From Anaerolineae bacterium (lineage in GTDB: Bacteria; Chloroflexota; Anaerolineae; JAKLPW01), in the NCBI GenBank assembly GCA_022013675.1, contig JAKLPW010000115.1:1-37742 (forward strand): a DNA stretch of 37,742 bases, written 5' to 3'. Shown one piece after another: positions 11,548 to 30,017 of the stretch (position 1 is its first letter; each line of letters starts with the position of its first letter). The translations under genes were made by a program, and so were the position numbers. The notes beneath the pieces are model-generated. The model saw only the letters and a list, made by a program, of their open reading frames with translations, was not told where the DNA came from and did not search any database.

Positions 11548-11574
11548 GAGTCGTAGGAACTAACCGAATAACAT

Positions 11575-11693
11575 TGCTGGGGGAGCCCTGAAGAGTGGGC
11601 TGAGAGAATGGCCGTTCGCCGCTTGAGTGCGAATGCTAAACGGCCGCTAACCCCTCGAACCTGACCTGGATAATGCCAGCGTAGGGAAGCTCA
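11575..11693 (+). promoter_or_regulatory. TPP riboswitch (THI element)
   Basis: The conserved aptamer blocks are present in order: GGGGGAGCC, GGGCTGAGA (the pyrimidine-sensing arm), a variable P3 stem (GGCCGTT...AACGGCC), then ACCCCTCGAACCTGACCTGG, ATAATGCCAGCGTAGGGAAG. Binding of thiamine pyrophosphate is known to switch such leaders. Here a terminator 20 nt downstream points to transcriptional control of thiN and the importer. The exact P1 ends are approximate. Confidence 0.95.
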
Positions 11694-11712
11694 TGGTGGA
11701 ATTGCTGTGTGC

Positions 11713-11750
11713 AAGCCGCTGACTCTATCTGGGTCAGCGGCTTATTCTTT
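11713..11750 (+). terminator. Riboswitch-controlled intrinsic terminator
   Basis: Arms AAGCCGCTGAC (11713-11723) and GTCAGCGGCTT (11733-11743) are perfectly complementary, with a 9-nt loop and a T-rich tail (ATTCTTT). The position between aptamer and thiN fits attenuation when TPP is bound. Confidence 0.88.
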
Positions 11751-11781
11751 GGGTAGGATCCGGACGGAGGGAATTGGAGGC

Positions 11782-12447
11782 ATGAGGGTCGTTGTCATCG
11801 CAAATGGGTCCATGGATGAGCAGCCTATCTATCACGATGTCGTTCGGGAAGCCGATCTGATCATCTGTGCTGACGGAGGTGCCAATATGGCCATGTCTCA
11901 CGGTTGGCATCCGGACGTGCTGGTGGGAGACATGGACTCGGTTGCGCCAAATATTCTGGCAGAGTTGGAATCCTCTGGCTGTGCAGTGATGCGTCACTCT
12001 CCGCGCAAGGACGTGACGGATCTGGAGTTGGCTTTGACGGAAGCTGTGGAGAGAGGAGCGACCGAGATGGTTGTGCTCGGGGCCACAGGGGGGCGGGTTG
12101 ACCATACTATCGCCAATGTGATGCTCCTGAGTATGCCTGTTCTGGTTGGCAGACGCGTCATGATCCTCGATGGCGACACGGAGATTGCGCTGATCCGAGA
12201 CGTCGGTCGCGTTCGCGGTTGTCCGGGCGATACCGTTTCACTGATTCCAATTTGTGGAGATGCCCGAGGCGTCACGACGGAGGGACTGGAGTGGCAGCTC
12301 AGCGAGGGCACGCTCGCATTTGGGTACGCCCGTGGTGTGAGCAACGTGTTGACTGCTCCTATGGCTAGCATCTCTGTAAGAGACGGATTGCTGCTGGTAA
12401 CTCATGCGCCTGTGCGTTACCCCTGGGCACCGGAGAAGACCGCATGA
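11782..12447 (+). CDS. thiN: Thiamine pyrophosphokinase
   Basis: This enzyme transfers pyrophosphate from ATP to thiamine, giving TPP. The frame is open from 11707, but those codons lie in the terminator; ATG 11782 is the natural start (221 residues, MRVVVIANGS). Motifs: ADGGAN, HPDVLVGDMDSV, KDVTDLELAL and GATGGRVDHTIANV form the catalytic domain; the C-terminal half is the thiamine-binding beta domain. It is the first gene after the TPP riboswitch, which itself senses the enzyme's product. It overlaps the methyltransferase gene by 4 bp (ATGA). Confidence 0.93.
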   Translation: MRVVVIANGSMDEQPIYHDVVREADLIICADGGANMAMSHGWHPDVLVGDMDSVAPNILAELESSGCAVMRHSPRKDVTDLELALTEAVERGATEMVVLGATGGRVDHTIANVMLLSMPVLVGRRVMILDGDTEIALIRDVGRVRGCPGDTVSLIPICGDARGVTTEGLEWQLSEGTLAFGYARGVSNVLTAPMASISVRDGLLLVTHAPVRYPWAPEKTA

Positions 12448-13175
12448 CTGATCTGCGAAGAGACCTCGAAGCCCGGCGTACAGATTGCTCAGTACCGAGC
12501 GAGAATCCGTTCGATGCTGCCGCTCCGTTCTACGATGCCTGGTACGAGATGCCCCTGGGACGCCTGGTCGATGAGCTTGAAAAGGATCTGATCTATGGAC
12601 TGGCGGCCCCCGTGGCAGGCGAGCGGGCTCTGGACGTGGGAACCGGTACGGGACACTTCGCCTTCGATCTGGCGCGGAGAGGTCTTAAAGTGACAGGTGT
12701 GGATATCTCGGGGGCAATGTTGAATGTGGCGCGGGCAAAAGGGGAGAGCGTTGCCCTGGTGACCGCCGATGCAGGTGAGCTGCCCTTTGAGGATTCTTCC
12801 TTTGATCTCGTCTTGTCGGTTACTAACCTGGAGTTCGTGTCTCAGCCAGAGAAGGCTCTCTCGGAAATGTGGCGCGTCACCTGTCCCGGGGGACGCATGG
12901 TTGTCGCTGTGCTCAATGCCTGGAGTCCCTGGGCCCGAGCCCGCCAGAGAGAGGCGCTGGAGCAGGATACTCCTTTCCGCTATGCGCACTTCTTTGCTCC
13001 TCGCGAGTTTGTCGGCAAGTTGCGCCATTACGGCCCGACCCGGTGGAACAGTTCGGTGTTCATTACGCCTGGTGGGCGTGGCCAGCGCCTGGCTTGGGCG
13101 CTGGAAAGAACCGGAAGGTTGGTGCTGCGGCCCTTTGGGGCTTTGTTGGTAGGGAGGGTTAGCAAAATGGGGTAA
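12444..13175 (+). CDS. SAM-dependent methyltransferase in the thiamine operon
   Basis: This 243-residue class I methyltransferase has the SAM-binding motif I LDVGTGTGHFAFDLA, acidic strand-2 end VTGVDISGAML, ADAGELPFEDSSFDLV and LEFVSQPEKALSEMWRV, as in UbiE/BioC-like enzymes (Methyltransf_11). Its substrate is unknown. It is translationally coupled to thiN and co-regulated by TPP, so a thiamine-linked role (for example on a pyrimidine or thiazole degradation product) is possible but inferred. The stop TAA follows GGGG; the frame -1 from there directly continues into the YkoF-like domain, so the two may form one fusion. Confidence 0.85.
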   Translation: MTDLRRDLEARRTDCSVPSENPFDAAAPFYDAWYEMPLGRLVDELEKDLIYGLAAPVAGERALDVGTGTGHFAFDLARRGLKVTGVDISGAMLNVARAKGESVALVTADAGELPFEDSSFDLVLSVTNLEFVSQPEKALSEMWRVTCPGGRMVVAVLNAWSPWARARQREALEQDTPFRYAHFFAPREFVGKLRHYGPTRWNSSVFITPGGRGQRLAWALERTGRLVLRPFGALLVGRVSKMG

Positions 13176-13429
13176 GTGCGCAAGTCAGTCTTTATCCCTT
13201 GGGGCAGGAGGATCTGGAGCCTGTCATCCAAGCCGTGTGGGCGGCGTTTCAACGCCGCGAAGTGGACTACGAAGTTGGGTCTATGAGCACCATTGCCTGG
13301 GGCGAGGATGCCAACGTGTTTGCTGCTCTGCAAGATGCATTCAAGGAGGCCGCCAAGTGTGGCCCTACGGTCATGGTGATCACACTCTCAAACGCCTGCC
13401 CGGTGCCGAAAGGGAGAACCGATGATTGA
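13172..13429 (+). CDS. YkoF-type thiamine/HMP-binding domain protein (start unresolved, possible frameshift)
   Basis: YkoF-family domains bind thiamine or hydroxymethylpyrimidine. The conserved start SAQVSLYPLGQEDL is encoded from about 13175, but there is no ATG, GTG or TTG in this frame until TTG 13199, which would cut into it. A good ribosome-binding site (AGGGAGGG, 13151-13158) is placed 8 nt before ATG 13167, but that ATG reads MG-stop. A -1 slip on GGGG (13169-13172), or one missing G, joins ATG 13167 and also the methyltransferase to this frame. The rest (GSMSTIAWG, VFAALQDAF, TLSNACP) is intact. The 3' end overlaps the permease start by 8 bp. Confidence 0.8.
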   Translation, partial: VSAQVSLYPLGQEDLEPVIQAVWAAFQRREVDYEVGSMSTIAWGEDANVFAALQDAFKEAAKCGPTVMVITLSNACPVPKGRTDD

Positions 13430-14249
13430 GGATCCCAGGAAGGGTGCGAGGAGGGGATGGGCTGTACCGTGGGAACGCTTGTCTCAGTATCTTCCTGCAG
13501 TCACGATGACCGTGCTGTTGCTGACCGTCTGGCAGGCCGCTACGATGATTTGGGATATCCAGAAATGGCTTTTGCCTTCTCCGGTTCAAATCGGAAGGGC
13601 CGCCGTTGAGGCTCGCCAGCTTCTTGGTCCTCATATCTGGCAAACGGCCAAGGAGACACTGCTGGGGTTCGCGGTGGCATTGGGAGCCGGTACCCTGTTG
13701 GCCCTGGCCATTGATTTCTCGCCTACGCTGCGCAGGGCCATCTATCCCCTGCTGGTCGTCTCTCAGACTATTCCGACCATCGCCATCGCGCCCTTGCTCG
13801 TCATCTGGCTGGGCTATGGTATCTGGCCCAAGATCATTGTGGTGGGATTGGTCTGCTTCTTTCCCATCGTGGTCAGCCTGGCCGATGGGCTCCGCAGTGC
13901 CGACCCGGATCTCATTGCCCTGCTTCAGTCTATGGGGGCTACGCGCAGGGATGTCTTCTTTAAAGTCCGTTGGCCCGGGGCGATGCCGGCCTTTTTCTCG
14001 GGAGTCAAGATCGCCATCACCTATAGCGTGATCGGTGCCATCATGGGCGAGTGGGTTGGTGCCAGTCGCGGTCTGGGGATCTTCATGCTGCGCGCGACGA
14101 ATTCCTTTCGCACTGACTGGGTCTTCGTCGCCATCGGCATCATTGCCCTTATGAGTATCGTTCTCTTCCTGCTCGTAGCAGCCCTGGAGCGTGCTCTCTT
14201 GCCCTGGTATTACACTGCTGAGCGGGAAGAGCGTTGGGAGGAATTGTAG
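13422..14249 (+). CDS. thiX: ABC transporter permease, thiamine-precursor importer (ThiX-like)
   Basis: This 275-residue inner-membrane permease is of the SsuC/TauC/ThiX group with about six membrane segments. The EAA loop is visible (ADGLRSADPDLIALLQSMGATRRDVFFKVRWPG region), where the ATPase docks. ATG 13422 overlaps the YkoF-like stop and AGGGAG lies upstream. The general family imports sulfonates, nitrate or pyrimidines. The TPP riboswitch, thiN and the NMT1/THI5-like binding protein next door point to a formyl-aminopyrimidine, HMP or thiamine precursor. Confidence 0.88.
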   Translation: MIEDPRKGARRGWAVPWERLSQYLPAVTMTVLLLTVWQAATMIWDIQKWLLPSPVQIGRAAVEARQLLGPHIWQTAKETLLGFAVALGAGTLLALAIDFSPTLRRAIYPLLVVSQTIPTIAIAPLLVIWLGYGIWPKIIVVGLVCFFPIVVSLADGLRSADPDLIALLQSMGATRRDVFFKVRWPGAMPAFFSGVKIAITYSVIGAIMGEWVGASRGLGIFMLRATNSFRTDWVFVAIGIIALMSIVLFLLVAALERALLPWYYTAEREERWEEL

Positions 14250-14287
14250 AGGCAAGTAGAAACAAGTAAAGACAAAAGGAGGTCAGT

Positions 14288-15280
14288 ATGTACAAGAACA
14301 GGATAGTAGGACTAATTGCTGGGTTGGTTGTTGTGATGCTCGTGGTCGGGTGCGGGGTAGCGACACCGACGCCGTCTCTGTCTCCAGAAAAGGTAACCGT
14401 CTCTTTGGACTGGGTGCCAAATACCAATCACACCGGTCTATACGTGGCCTTGGACAAAGGCTGGTATGCCGATGAGGGCCTCGAAGTAGATATCCAGATA
14501 CCGTCGGATCCTGCCGCGGCTCTCAAGCAGGTAGCCTCGGGGCATACCGAGTTCGGCATCAGTTTCCAGGAGGAGGTCACTATCGCGAGGGCCAATGAGA
14601 TTCCCGTAGTTTCGCTGGCCGCCATCATCCAGCACAATACCTCGGCCTTTGCCTCGCTGAAGGAGAGCAACATCACTCGCCCCAAGGATTTCGAGGGGAG
14701 GAAGTATGCCTCCTATGGATTGCCTATCGAGAGACCTATCCTGGAGGGCCTGATGCGCTATGATGGTGGGGATATCAACAAGGTGGAATTCGTGGAAGTT
14801 GGCTTCGATGCCTATCCTGCGCTCATCGGCAAGAGGGTGGATGTGGCCTGGATCTTCCTGGCCTGGGATGGCGTGCAGGCAGAGATCATGGGCTACGATC
14901 TGAGTGTGATTCCCTTGTACAGAAGCTGTATCCCCGACTACTACACGCCGGTGATTGTGGCGGGCGAGAAGACCATCGCTGAAAGGCCGGATACGATAAG
15001 GCGTTTCATGGCAGCGACGACGAAGGGCTATGAATACGTCATTGCGCATCCGGAAGAGGCGGCGAAAATCCTCCTGAAACATTCCCCGGAGAGCGATCCT
15101 GAGTTGGTGCGCCGCAGCCAGGCCTGGCTTAGTCCAAGGTATCAGGACGATGCTCCTCGATGGGGCGATCAGAAACTGGAGACCTGGCGCAACTACGCTC
15201 AGTGGATGTACGAACGGGGGCTGCTGTCAGTGGCGATCGACCCTGAAGCGGCGTTCACCACGGCCTTCTTGCCGGAGTAG
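14288..15280 (+). CDS. thiY: ABC transporter substrate-binding lipoprotein, NMT1/THI5-like (ThiY-like)
   Basis: This 330-residue binding protein captures the thiamine precursor outside the membrane. It has a lipoprotein signal: basic MYKNR, hydrophobic helix and lipobox VVGC with Cys22, followed by a Thr/Pro/Ser spacer. The mature part begins KVTVSLDWVPNTNHTGLYVA, as in THI5/ThiY proteins, with DKGWYADEGLEV and the late LSPRYQDD. AGGAGGTCAGT precedes the ATG. Ligand is inferred from family and operon; formylaminopyrimidine is the known substrate of ThiY in bacilli. Confidence 0.9.
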   Translation: MYKNRIVGLIAGLVVVMLVVGCGVATPTPSLSPEKVTVSLDWVPNTNHTGLYVALDKGWYADEGLEVDIQIPSDPAAALKQVASGHTEFGISFQEEVTIARANEIPVVSLAAIIQHNTSAFASLKESNITRPKDFEGRKYASYGLPIERPILEGLMRYDGGDINKVEFVEVGFDAYPALIGKRVDVAWIFLAWDGVQAEIMGYDLSVIPLYRSCIPDYYTPVIVAGEKTIAERPDTIRRFMAATTKGYEYVIAHPEEAAKILLKHSPESDPELVRRSQAWLSPRYQDDAPRWGDQKLETWRNYAQWMYERGLLSVAIDPEAAFTTAFLPE

Positions 15281-15290
15281 GGGGCACGGA

Positions 15291-15372
15291 ATCACGAATC
15301 TCACGAATTGCCGAATGGCACGAATCCAGCCAGAATCAGAGAGAGTATTCGTGGAAATGGTGTATTAGTGCC
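15291..15372. repeat. ATTCGTG-rich interspersed repeat, copy 1
   Basis: Several CACGAAT units (15291-15327) are followed by inverted ATTCGTG (15347-15353) and AGTGCCATT. A second, longer copy lies at 29870-30017. It separates the binding protein gene from the ATPase gene within the operon, so it was probably inserted there and did not break either gene. Confidence 0.55.
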
Positions 15373-15430
15373 ATTTGTAATAAGTGGAAGGGCGGATGCT
15401 CTTGCAGAGACGAGACTGGGGGGCGGGCAG

Positions 15431-16222
15431 GTGGATAAACAGCGCGACGACAGTGGTGTGATAGGCGTGGGGGACAAGGTGGTACTCAGGGACGTGCGGA
15501 AGTCCTTTCGTGTGGATGGCCGCGTGACTGTGGCACTGGACGGGATCGACATGGTAGCGCGCGACAGGGAGTTTGTGACACTCATTGGTCCCAGCGGCTG
15601 TGGCAAGAGCACTCTGTTCAATATCATCTGTGGCCTGATGGAGCCAGAAGCGGGACAGGTGTGGCTGAATAGCCGCGTGGATGGCCGCCGTATTGGCACG
15701 GTCGGGTACATGCCGCAAAAGGACCTGCTACTCCCCTGGCGCAGCGTTCTCGACAACGTCATCCTGGGCCCCGAACTGGCGGGGGTGGATAGGCGGAAAG
15801 CCAGCCGTGAAGCGCGCGAACTTCTGCCACTTTTTGGGCTTGCGGGTTTTGAGGATAGTTATCCTGTCACCCTGTCGGGGGGAATGAAACAGCGGGCTGC
15901 TTTGCTCCGCACGGTGTCATGTCATCGAGATATCATGCTGCTGGATGAACCCTTTGGAGCCCTGGATGCTCTGACCCGTAGCACTCTCCAGGATTGGCTC
16001 CTGGGCATCTGGCAGCGCTTTCGGCAGACCGTCCTCTTCATCACGCATGACGTCGAGGAGGCGGTCTATCTCTCCGATCGCGTGTATGTCATGAGCGCGC
16101 GCCCCGCCCAGATGATAAAGGAACTGACAGTGCCTCTGGCGCGTCCGAGGTGTCGCGATATGGTGGCGACGGAATCCTTCCTGTCCTGCAAAGTGGAGCT
16201 GCTGGCAGCGCTGGGGACCTGA
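15431..16222 (+). CDS. thiZ: ABC transporter ATPase, thiamine-precursor importer (ThiZ-like)
   Basis: The ATPase subunit has Walker A GPSGCGKST, Q-loop MPQKDLLLPWRSV, signature LSGGMKQRAAL, Walker B IMLLDEPFGALDALT and His switch FITHDVEEAV. GTG at 15431 gives about 263 residues, the family length; the open frame begins at 15308, but that part lies in an intergenic repeat and has no homology-like content. It completes the importer with the permease and binding protein and is the last gene of the thiamine operon. Confidence 0.9.
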   Translation: MDKQRDDSGVIGVGDKVVLRDVRKSFRVDGRVTVALDGIDMVARDREFVTLIGPSGCGKSTLFNIICGLMEPEAGQVWLNSRVDGRRIGTVGYMPQKDLLLPWRSVLDNVILGPELAGVDRRKASREARELLPLFGLAGFEDSYPVTLSGGMKQRAALLRTVSCHRDIMLLDEPFGALDALTRSTLQDWLLGIWQRFRQTVLFITHDVEEAVYLSDRVYVMSARPAQMIKELTVPLARPRCRDMVATESFLSCKVELLAALGT

Positions 16223-16342
16223 TATCGCGCTCGCATGACAGAGTGGGGAAGGAGAACAAGGCAATGCTTGCCTGGAAGCATCTACTGGGTTTGGCTGAGA
16301 GGAAGGAACTGCCATTCAGCGGCCATCCCTCGAGCTGGGCCT

Positions 16343-16384
16343 CCCGATAAGTAGCGGCGCTACTTAGCGGCGGGCCATATCGGG
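16343..16384 (+). terminator. Nested hairpin after the thiamine operon
   Basis: An inner perfect hairpin AAGTAGC-GGC-GCTACTT (16349-16365) sits within outer arms CCCGATA (16343-16349) and TATCGGG (16378-16384). There is no T tract. It lies 120 bp after the ATPase stop and could end the operon. A 28-codon ORF at 16264-16350 just before it is not convincing. Confidence 0.4.
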
Positions 16385-16388
16385 TCTA

Positions 16389-16487
16389 AGGTGCAACGCA
16401 CCTGAGCATGGTCCGTACAGTTTGCTGATCGTCCTGCAACCCGCTCTGGATGCACAAATACTGTGCTTCTGTAGGTGCGTTGAACCT
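16389..16487. repeat. Two copies of the AGGTGC-N3-GCACCT palindromic repeat
   Basis: Copy 2 at 16389-16403 is the exact reverse complement of the copy at 5797-5811. Copy 3 at 16473-16487 (AGGTGCGTTGAACCT) has one changed base. No gene is seen in 16223-16661 apart from these repeats, the hairpin at 16343 and the promoter at 16515. Confidence 0.55.
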
Positions 16488-16514
16488 GGTACGAGGCCTC
16501 CCCTATGCCGCGGA

Positions 16515-16543
16515 TTGAGCTTCTGCAAAATCAGGGGTATAAT
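16515..16543 (+). promoter_or_regulatory. Promoter of the beta-CASP RNase gene
   Basis: TTGAGC (16515-16520), a 17-nt spacer and consensus TATAAT (16538-16543) precede a leader of about 110 nt. Confidence 0.72.
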
Positions 16544-16661
16544 ACGGGCACCGGAGTTCACCGGAGCAGACGGGTGGTCTGAGGATGGGGCAAGGATCCT
16601 TTCCTGTTGGCTGCCCTCGTTCGAGGTGCTCACACAAGCGCGTTCTCATGGAGGCACACAG

Positions 16662-18059
16662 TTGAAGATCAAGTTTCTCGGAGCAGCACAGACCGTCACC
16701 GGTTCCATGCACTACCTGCAGATCAATGGCTCCAACATCCTGCTGGATTGCGGGCTCTTCCAGGGCCGGCGGAAGGAGAGCTTCGAGCGGAACCGCAATC
16801 TTCCGTTCGATGCGTCCCAGGTGGATGCCATGATCCTTTCCCACGCCCATATTGACCACAGCGGAAACATCCCCTCGCTGGTAAGCAGTGGCTTCCGGGG
16901 CAATATCTACGCTACCTTTGCCACTAGGGATCTATGCAGTGCCATGCTTCGCGACTCGGCCTACATCCAGGAGGCGGATGTCAAGTACGTGAACAGGAGG
17001 AGGCTCAAGGAGGGACTACTGCCTGTCGAGCCCCTCTACACCAAGGCAGACGCCGTCGAGAGCTTGAAGTACTTCGTCGGGATGGGCTATGATCGTTGGT
17101 TCACGGTAACACCGGGCGTGCGTGCTATCTTCTACGACGCGGGCCATATCCTGGGTTCGGCGATCACGGTTCTCGATATCACGGAAAACGGGCGCAGCTT
17201 CCGGCTGGCTTTCACCGGTGACCTTGGGCGCATTGATATGCCTATCCTCAAGGACCCCACCTTGATTCACGACGTAGACTATCTCATCACTGAGAGTACC
17301 TACGGTAACCGGGAGCACGAGACTCCCTACGAAGCGGAGGAGGCCCTCCAGCGCGTGGTCACTCAGTCCTACGAGCGTAGAGGCAAAGTCATCATTCCAG
17401 CCTTCGCCGTCGGTCGCACCCAGGAGATCGTCTATGCTCTGCATAGGTTGACGCTCGCTGGTAAGATTCCCGGGGCGAGCATTTTCGTGGACTCCCCTCT
17501 GGCGGTAAACGTCACGGAGATATTCCGCCTGCATCCCGAGTGCTATGATGAGGAAACCCACCAGTTCATGCTAGACCATCCGGACCCGTTTGGGTTCGCG
17601 CGCCTGCGATATGTGCGTCAGGTAGAGGAGTCCAAGAAGCTGAACTTTCTGAAAGAGCCCGCTGTGATCATCAGTGCATCGGGGATGTGCGAAGCTGGGC
17701 GCATTCTGCATCACTTGAAGAACAATATTGAGGACGCCCGAAACACCGTGCTGATAGTTGGCTTTCAGGCTGAGCACACCCTTGGCCGCCGCATCGTGGA
17801 TCGCAACCCGGAAGTCCGTATCTTTGGGGAGGAATACAAACTTTGCGCAAAGGTGGAGATCATCAATGGGTACAGCGCCCACGCTGACCGCTCCGAATTA
17901 CTGAGTTGGATCAAGTCTGCGTGCGAGGGTGGGCGGCTGCAAAAGGTCTTCGTGGTGCATGGCGATCCCCCCAAGTCCCGGGCTTTAGCCGAGGGCATCA
18001 GGGAACTCGGGGTACCCTACGTTCTAGTTCCTGCCCGACAGCAAGAGGTTGAGTTCTAG
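16662..18059 (+). CDS. Beta-CASP metallo-beta-lactamase ribonuclease (YsnF/CPSF73-like)
   Basis: The start is TTG 16662, 7 nt after GGAGG (16650-16654); upstream codons of the same frame run through promoter and repeats. The 465-residue product begins MKIKFLGAAQTVTGSMHYL. Metallo-beta-lactamase motif HAHIDH (61-66), GHILGSA, TGDLGR, the beta-CASP motifs ITESTYG, IPAFAVGRTQE and SGMCEAGRI, and the last motif GYSAHADRSEL are all present. Proteins of this kind are RNA endonucleases related to CPSF73 and RNase J, but lack the RNase J C-terminal domain. The role in this organism is likely RNA processing; the precise substrate is unknown. Confidence 0.9.
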   Translation: MKIKFLGAAQTVTGSMHYLQINGSNILLDCGLFQGRRKESFERNRNLPFDASQVDAMILSHAHIDHSGNIPSLVSSGFRGNIYATFATRDLCSAMLRDSAYIQEADVKYVNRRRLKEGLLPVEPLYTKADAVESLKYFVGMGYDRWFTVTPGVRAIFYDAGHILGSAITVLDITENGRSFRLAFTGDLGRIDMPILKDPTLIHDVDYLITESTYGNREHETPYEAEEALQRVVTQSYERRGKVIIPAFAVGRTQEIVYALHRLTLAGKIPGASIFVDSPLAVNVTEIFRLHPECYDEETHQFMLDHPDPFGFARLRYVRQVEESKKLNFLKEPAVIISASGMCEAGRILHHLKNNIEDARNTVLIVGFQAEHTLGRRIVDRNPEVRIFGEEYKLCAKVEIINGYSAHADRSELLSWIKSACEGGRLQKVFVVHGDPPKSRALAEGIRELGVPYVLVPARQQEVEF

Positions 18060-28440: not shown

Positions 28441-28800
28441 GATGCTGGTACACCTGTGCGACGTGCCGAGGAACGAGGCTCGCGCTGCTGAGTGCGACGC
28501 ATAGGAAGTCTCTCCTGACTGCGACCGACCATCTCCCGATTCGCACTCACAGGCTGGAGTGGTGGTGTGGCTTGTTCGCTTCGCGCGATGGTAGGAGATC
28601 CAGGTGAGTCTCTACTTGGGTCAATCCCGTCGCCAGGCCGTGAGTGACCCTCCGTGAGTCCGCAGATAGCCCTACCTTCCGAAGCCAGAGTCGCGCTGCG
28701 TGGATCGAGGCCCGGCGACACGCGAGAGATCAAGCGGGCCCACTCAAACGTTTTGCCCAATCAGCGCATGAATCGAATCACACTCGGAGGATCACCCCCC
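28441..28800. other. Leader between gntR and transketolase remnant
   Basis: No gene was recognised. A 9-base perfect inverted repeat (28489-28497 TGAGTGCGA and 28541-28549 TCGCACTCA) encloses a 43-base loop with a small inner AGGA/TCCT hairpin. It may be a structured leader or a regulator site. GGAGG near 28786-28790 is the ribosome-binding site of the next frame. Confidence 0.35.
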
Positions 28801-29858
28801 ATGCCAGAACTATCAGAGAACGAAGTCCATCACCTGGAAGAGGTTGCCAAAAGGATCCGGTGCCACGTCGTGCGCACCATTTCCCAAGCGCGCGCGGGCC
28901 ATCCCGGGGGATCACTATCCGAGGCCGATATCCTGGCGGCGCTTTATTTTCACGTTATGAGGGTGGATCCCCAGCATCCGGATTGGCAAAAGAGAGACCG
29001 CTTCGTCCTCTCCAAAGGCCACGGCGCCGCGGGCCTCTACGCTACTCTGGCTGAGCGTGGATACTTCTCCCTAGAACTCTTGAAGACCTTTGGCCGCATC
29101 AACAGCACGCTCCAAGTTCATCCGGACATGCACATGGTGCCCGGCATCGAAATATCCACCGGTGCTCTTGGACAAGGGATATCAGTAGCCCTGGGCATCG
29201 CGATGGCAGCCAGAATGGACGGAGATGACTTCCACGTCTACTGTCTCATTGGAGACGGCGAGAGCCAGGAAGGCCAGGTCTGGGAGGCCGAGGAGGTAGC
29301 GGCTCACTACAGGGTGGACAACCTGACCGTGATCCTGGATTACAACGGGGTGCAACTCATGGAGCCAGTGAGTGAAGTGCTGGAGATGGCCCCGTCTATC
29401 TGCGTCTGACCCGCGACGTCTGGCCTCGTGTCTCGCCGGAGGGTTCCAGCTTCAAACTGGGGAAAGCGGTGCAGATACGGGAGGGCAGCGATATCACCCT
29501 CATAGGCAGCGGGATGATGACCTCTCAATGCGTTGAGGCCGCGCAGCTTCTAGCCCTATCGGGAGTATCGGCCCGCGTTATCAACATCGCTACTCTGAAG
29601 CCCATTGACGTGAACGCCATCGTGAAAGCGGCTGAGGAGACCGGATGCATCGTCACCGCCGAGAACCACAACATCTACGGCGGGTTGGGCAGCGCCGTGG
29701 CGGAAGTGCTGGTGGAACACTTCCCCGTACCGATGCTGCGGGTGGGACTGCGTGACTGCTACGGGGAATGTGGAGGCAACACAGAGCTGCTACACAAGTA
29801 CCAGATGTCGCCCCAGCACATCGCCGCCGCCGCTCGCTCTGTCCTTCAACGAAAATGA
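28801..29858 (+). pseudogene. tkt: Collapsed transketolase: N-subunit fused out of frame to C-subunit by internal deletion
   Basis: The 5' part (28801-about 29390) encodes the N-terminal transketolase subunit: HVVRTISQARAGHPGGSL, VLSKGHGAAGLYA, STGALGQGISVALG, and the TPP-binding GDGESQEGQVWEA ... DYNGVQL. It stops at TGA 29407-29409, about 75 residues short. From about 29385 another frame continues with GPVYLRLTRDVWP, IGSGMMTS, INIATLKPIDV, ENHNIYGGLGSAVAEVL, the C-terminal third of the transketolase C-subunit. The end of the N-subunit and the first half of the C-subunit are missing, an estimated 700 bp or so. No functional enzyme can result. Assembly collapse is the alternative. Confidence 0.85.
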
Positions 29859-29869
29859 ACCACGCCATT

Positions 29870-30017
29870 ATCACGAATTCCACGAATGAACGAATGACAC
29901 GAATGTAGTTAATTGCTAGGAAAACAGGGCTCTACGCGGGGATAATGGATTCACTCAACGGCAACCTCACAGATGCAGCTTCACCCAAGAGCATTCGTGA
30001 GATTCGTGTCAGTCATG
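29870..30017. repeat. ATTCGTG-rich interspersed repeat, copy 2
   Basis: Left CACGAAT units (29870-29905) and right inverted units (29992-30007, CATTCGTGAGATTCGTG) frame about 85 bases. The right end runs up to the stop codon of the sugar kinase gene. The same units occur at 15291-15372. Confidence 0.6.

Follow-up and report, generated by a model that had tools for sequence, protein, structure and literature searches.

The gene for release factor 2, prfB, is expressed by a +1 shift at CUU UGA that is autoregulatory and widely conserved. In -1 frameshift signals of the dnaX type, a spacing of 11 nt from an upstream Shine-Dalgarno sequence lies within the range favouring slips. In E. coli, GGGG makes for a weak motif: G_GG.G was not found to be shifty there, and its signal was ascribed to Shine-Dalgarno-driven initiation (PMC4066793). 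Shine-Dalgarno-directed initiation at poor start codons such as AUA is itself documented (PMC4066793). Gene pairs overlapping by the bases ATGA are translationally coupled by termination-reinitiation (Huber et al. 2019, PMC6728339).

Here we describe the junction between a class I SAM methyltransferase (MTase) gene and ykoF in a window of 37,742 nucleotides, the whole stretch of DNA analysed, from an uncultured bacterium that is Chloroflexota-like. Like coupled ATGA pairs (PMC6728339), the two genes lie on the same strand at a -1 offset, their stop and start regions overlap, and a Shine-Dalgarno sequence sits inside the upstream gene. Unlike such pairs, the window has its downstream start codon outside the downstream frame. 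Like dnaX and IS-type signals, the junction combines a slippery run, preceded at 11 nt by a Shine-Dalgarno-like element, with a -1 frame that encodes a real domain. It differs from them in having a GGGG tetramer only, with the stop adjacent and no heptamer, in having no stimulatory structure that we could find, in not being conserved, and in lying one codon after a start codon. As at the prfB shift, a P-site tRNA would slip while a stop codon occupies the A site, shortly downstream of a Shine-Dalgarno sequence, but the slip would be -1 rather than the conserved +1. The downstream product resembles the YkoF / thiamine-binding family (PF07615, PF01910; structures 1s99/1sbr) in its domain match and in its setting within a TPP-riboswitch thiamine-precursor operon; unlike B. 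subtilis YkoF, it is single-domain and, in this lineage, has no usable start of its own. No direct precedent for such a start-proximal -1 shift emerged from a search of the open literature.

The operon and the junction

The junction is a lineage-specific oddity within an otherwise ordinary TPP-riboswitch thiamine operon, with the following features.

11569-11704, + strand: TPP riboswitch aptamer (RF00059) at the operon head; Rfam 64.1 bits, E 3.7e-11
11707-12447, + strand: thiamin pyrophosphokinase (TPK); PF04263 6e-32, PF04265 2e-13
12444-13175, + strand: MTase (Methyltransf_11), with its TAA at 13173-13175; PF08241 7e-27; orthologues adjoin YkoF in 15 genomes at 49-64% identity
13152-13158, + strand: Shine-Dalgarno-like GGGAGGG within the MTase end (codons for ..LVGRV), read from the sequence; identical or near variants occur at the same place in relatives
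13163-13429, + strand: ykoF frame (YkoF / thiamine-binding domain), with no canonical start ahead of TTG 13199; PF07615 9e-10
13166-13168, + strand: AAT in the register of the relatives' ykoF start codon, compared directly with UBA6131 and other relatives
13167-13175, + strand: ATG GGG TAA, an out-of-frame start candidate, two-codon frame and MTase stop, read from the sequence
13169-13172, + strand: GGGG run at which tRNA-Gly could re-pair at -1, read from the sequence and the same in a second assembly, L033
13422-14249, + strand: ABC transporter permease overlapping the ykoF stop; PF00528 2e-31
14288-15280, + strand: NMT1/THI5-like substrate-binding protein; PF09084 1e-72
15308-16222, + strand: ABC transporter ATPase, start codon uncertain; open reading frame with Walker A (GPSGCGKST) and LSGGM signature motifs

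The genes for thiamin pyrophosphokinase and the MTase themselves overlap by 4 nt (ATGA). YkoF matched PF07615 with 39.3 bits (curated cut-off 21; E 9e-10) over residues 5-80, PF01910 at 2e-6, and the B. subtilis YkoF structure 1s99/1sbr at E 0.0016, and it was 47-64% identical to its relatives in the class. The TPP riboswitch, TPK and NMT1-type transporter form the context for putative thiamine/HMP binding by YkoF, and we propose that the operon serves uptake of a thiamine precursor. The source metagenome-assembled genome (MAG) is fragmented into 526 contigs and 93% complete. This MAG yielded no ThiC and, above the family cut-off, no YkoF or Thiamine_BP gene other than the ykoF of the window; for this reason precursor uptake probably matters to the organism, which probably takes up the pyrimidine precursor. 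In UBA6131, a relative, a TPP riboswitch lies directly upstream of the MTase. The SAM methyltransferase (12444-13175 in the window, loci L063-L082), which adjoins YkoF in 15 class-level genomes, is an uncharacterised protein with a putative role in thiamine-precursor metabolism.

The MTase frame (12444-13175) ends in GTT AGC AAA ATG GGG TAA. The ykoF frame, -1 relative to it, runs without a stop from 13163 as far as the TGA at 13427-13429 and translates as QNGVSAQVSLYPLGQEDLEP...; its codons from 13163 are CAA AAT GGG GTA AGT GCG CAA GTC AGT CTT TAT CCC TTG. Positions 13163-13198 of this frame hold no start codon of translation table 11, the first being TTG 13199. A start further upstream is ruled out by the TAG that lies in frame at 13160. 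The window's sole ATG at the junction (AAAATGGGGTAAG) lies one base off the ykoF start register, which is occupied by AAT. This ATG (13167) belongs to the MTase frame, follows GGGAGGG, and is read for two codons before the stop. The GGGG run at 13169-13172, with its GGAGG core 11 nt upstream, permits -1 re-pairing of GGG on GGG, after which the next codon is GTA 13172. An earlier note on this DNA had described the -1 geometry, the re-pairing one base back at ATG_GGG_TAA, the want of a canonical ykoF start before TTG 13199, and an ATG with a ribosome-binding site that halts after two codons, and each of these descriptions agreed with the sequence when checked.

Relatives carry a separate ykoF with an ordinary start

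In the collection used, searches of the window's family and order gave no genome but its own, and nothing closer came from sampling the class a second time or from a sample of the phylum; the comparison is at the level of the class (Anaerolineae-level relatives). All 28 full-length YkoF loci sampled from the class have an in-frame ATG or GTG 2-5 codons ahead of a conserved [VI]-S-A-Q block, so the start-less ykoF of the window is exceptional rather than typical of the family.

An orthologous MTase gene directly precedes YkoF in 15 genomes. Every one of these shows the offset found in the window, with YkoF at -1 relative to the MTase frame, and ykoF begins at an in-frame ATG or GTG directly behind a Shine-Dalgarno sequence. 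Thirteen are textbook ATGA pairs with a 4-nt overlap, and the other two, G105 and G161 (UBA6131), have GTG starts with longer overlaps of 22 and 10 nt. A ..GALLVG.. peptide is common to the MTase ends of the paired relatives, and its retention keeps the Shine-Dalgarno sequence there as well.

The earlier note had also raised a split fusion of the two genes. The proposed check for MTase-YkoF fusions in related genomes gave none among the 15, each of which has separate, overlapping genes and a normally started ykoF, one of the findings that the note had said would count against it. An ancestral or widespread fusion is thus rejected. A functional fusion made by programmed -1 frameshifting, as the purpose of the arrangement, would fit the MTase frame crossing GGGG directly ahead of its stop and the -1 frame being YkoF, yet none of the 15 relatives is fused, all have separate starts, the slip site is not conserved, and the junction has neither a heptamer nor a pseudoknot-like stimulator, making such a purpose highly improbable. 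GGG can re-pair on GGG one base back, and GGAGG stands 11 nt upstream, although this element is also the ordinary ykoF Shine-Dalgarno sequence of the relatives; no unusual structure lies downstream, and none of the paired relatives has the GGGG-stop arrangement, which we found only in the window and the near-identical L033. Because conservation fails, we do not classify the junction as a programmed -1 frameshift, although its mechanism could still work like one. Recoding at the MTase stop is possible, with neither conservation nor a stimulator behind it.

Two relatives have unusual YkoF proteins. At locus L078 of genome G234 (junction at ~2170 of the reverse complement), YkoF starts at an ordinary ATGA and lacks the AQVSLYPLG block (MTPQDAVAPAPGGIGITAV...), its N-terminal strand having been lost or replaced. 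At locus L029 of genome G085, on the reverse strand, YkoF runs without a stop into a second domain, which we take to resemble a methyltransferase domain of the TsaA/TrmO type (UPF0066).

Relative to these genomes, the window junction shows no net indel, and the offset from the MTase frame to the ykoF frame is unchanged. UBA6131 aligns to it base for base and gapless (AAC AAG TGC AGC TAA G against AGC AAA ATG GGG TAA G), and the UBA6131 GTG start falls at the position of the window's AAT. The change is one of start-codon register only, with the ATG now one base 3' of its expected place (13167 vs 13166). Two single-base changes that cancelled each other out within the A and G runs could have produced it, as could two or three substitutions. 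The earlier note's suggestion that a G was lost holds at best by half. The start is indeed out of register, but the frame offset equals that of the relatives, and an extra G would put the ATG in frame with ykoF only by removing the MTase stop and fusing the genes. Loss of a single G is accordingly rejected as the sole cause; with the net frame offset unchanged, an ancestral fusion fails to explain the junction, just as a simple lost G does. We conclude that the displaced ykoF start is real and lineage-specific, and that the overlap is otherwise ordinary and translationally coupled.

A second assembly has the same junction

The source MAG is fragmented, and an abrupt deletion in a transketolase near 29.4 kb on the same contig could be real or an assembly fault, both of which leave room for a sequencing or assembly error at the junction. 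A second copy of the junction argues against this. L033 (JAHJUB010000223.1), a contig of another MAG, is colinear with 12407-16899 of the window at 99.5% identity, with 22 mismatches and 0 gaps over 4,493 bases, and its junction is identical, with all four Gs kept. Substitutions between the two are 2 synonymous and 0 non-synonymous in YkoF, 3 and 0 in the permease, 2 and 3 in the MTase, and 6 and 4 in the binding protein. As many of the differences are synonymous third-position changes, L033 appears to derive from another strain rather than to duplicate the assembly of the window. Since this independently assembled and diverged contig has the same junction, a homopolymer mistake made twice is unlikely, contrary to what the earlier note had entertained; the runs, four As and four Gs, are short, and an in-frame start with the MTase stop retained would take more than one change. 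Error as the main explanation is therefore rejected as largely refuted by L033, and we regard it as quite improbable.

L033 is filed under a Candidatus Omnitrophota MAG, while the window's relatives are Anaerolineae-like, and L033 is probably misbinned. As to the transketolase, at 28654-29900 of the window an N-terminal part (ending ..MEPVSEVLEMAPSICV*) abuts a C-terminal part in another frame (..GDGPVYLRLTRDVWP..), both of which we presume from their motifs to be transketolase; the middle is absent near 29.4 kb, through internal deletion or assembly collapse.

Expression or loss of ykoF

We propose that intact YkoF is made from this junction by a one-base backward slip or else not made. Our leading but tentative reading is that ykoF is expressed through a -1 slip at the second codon. 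The MTase gene and ykoF would be a normally overlapping, coupled pair in which the ykoF start drifted by one base in this lineage. The strong Shine-Dalgarno sequence would still bring ribosomes, whether newly initiating or finishing the MTase, to AUG-GGG-UAA. With UAA in the A site, a fraction of the peptidyl-tRNA-Gly would re-pair one base back on GGGG, and translation would resume at GUA AGU GCG... to give M-G-VSAQVSLYPLGQEDL..., a normal YkoF N-terminus. The predicted product would begin M-G-V-S-A-Q-V-S-L-Y-P-L-G-Q-E-D-L (MGVSAQVSLYPLGQEDL; MGVSAQVSLYPLG...), and a small amount of MTase-YkoF read-on protein would be a by-product.

Several observations are consistent with slip expression. 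The junction is identical in L033. The -1 offset is kept in all 15 paired relatives, so that a one-base slip would enter YkoF exactly, and the predicted MGVSAQVSLYPLGQEDL agrees with MMGVSAQVSLYPLGQEDL, the N-terminus in G001 and G071, which has one extra Met. The GGAGG core, 11 nt ahead of the GGGG run, has a spacing that favours -1 slips in dnaX-type signals. The ykoF frame is intact, and both of its substitutions relative to L033 are synonymous, although two changes are weak evidence of selection. Divergence of YkoF from its relatives is not raised compared with that of the MTase (mean residual +0.025, s.d. 0.066), giving no signal of relaxed constraint at this resolution. Against slip expression, the GGGG-stop site is not conserved in any relative. 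No stimulatory RNA structure was found downstream, where folding was weaker than in shuffled sequences (z +2.0 and +1.3). That slippage happens and suffices for function is plausible, but it could be weak.

The close competitor, almost as likely as slip expression, is that a recent local mutation removed the ykoF start and full-length YkoF is no longer made, leaving a young pseudogene or a strong hypomorph. The lack of a canonical in-frame start fits such a loss, as does the lack of a known efficient slippery heptamer or a stimulator; in E. coli, G_GGG is poorly shifty (PMC4066793). Moreover, 361 of 396 genomes of the class have no YkoF match at 1e-8, so ykoF is not indispensable to the class. 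The other operon genes would still work because the permease has its own Shine-Dalgarno sequence and start. Standing against inactivation are the fully intact frame with its unraised divergence, the presence of the junction in two strains, and the MAG's lack of ThiC and of any other YkoF or Thiamine_BP gene over the cut-off. Taken together, the intact frame, the divergence, and the missing ThiC and second YkoF lean toward continued function, though recent inactivation would still be compatible with them because the comparison with L033 offers only two changes in ykoF.

YkoF might instead start elsewhere. One candidate is TTG 13199, which would give a form without the first strand; another is a non-cognate codon to which the Shine-Dalgarno sequence directs initiation. 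The first has a parallel in G234, whose YkoF suggests that the AQVSLYPLG block may not be indispensable, and the second has precedent in initiation at AUA (PMC4066793). However, TTG 13199 has no Shine-Dalgarno sequence and would delete a block conserved in all relatives except G234, and the codons at 13163-13198 are not near-cognate starts. We consider another start improbable. Like assembly error and a purposeful fusion, it is a minor explanation beside slip expression and inactivation.

We think it rather unlikely that normal expression of the gene relies on a -1 slip at codon two of AUG-GGG-UAA, replacing an in-frame start and derived from an ATGA-type overlap. If YkoF is still made, the junction would be a clean natural case of a coupled overlap surviving the loss of its downstream start by slippage beside a Shine-Dalgarno sequence. 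If YkoF is not made, the locus would be a young gene inactivation within an operon for vitamin uptake, and would serve as a reminder that ykoF will be omitted or truncated by gene callers at this junction.
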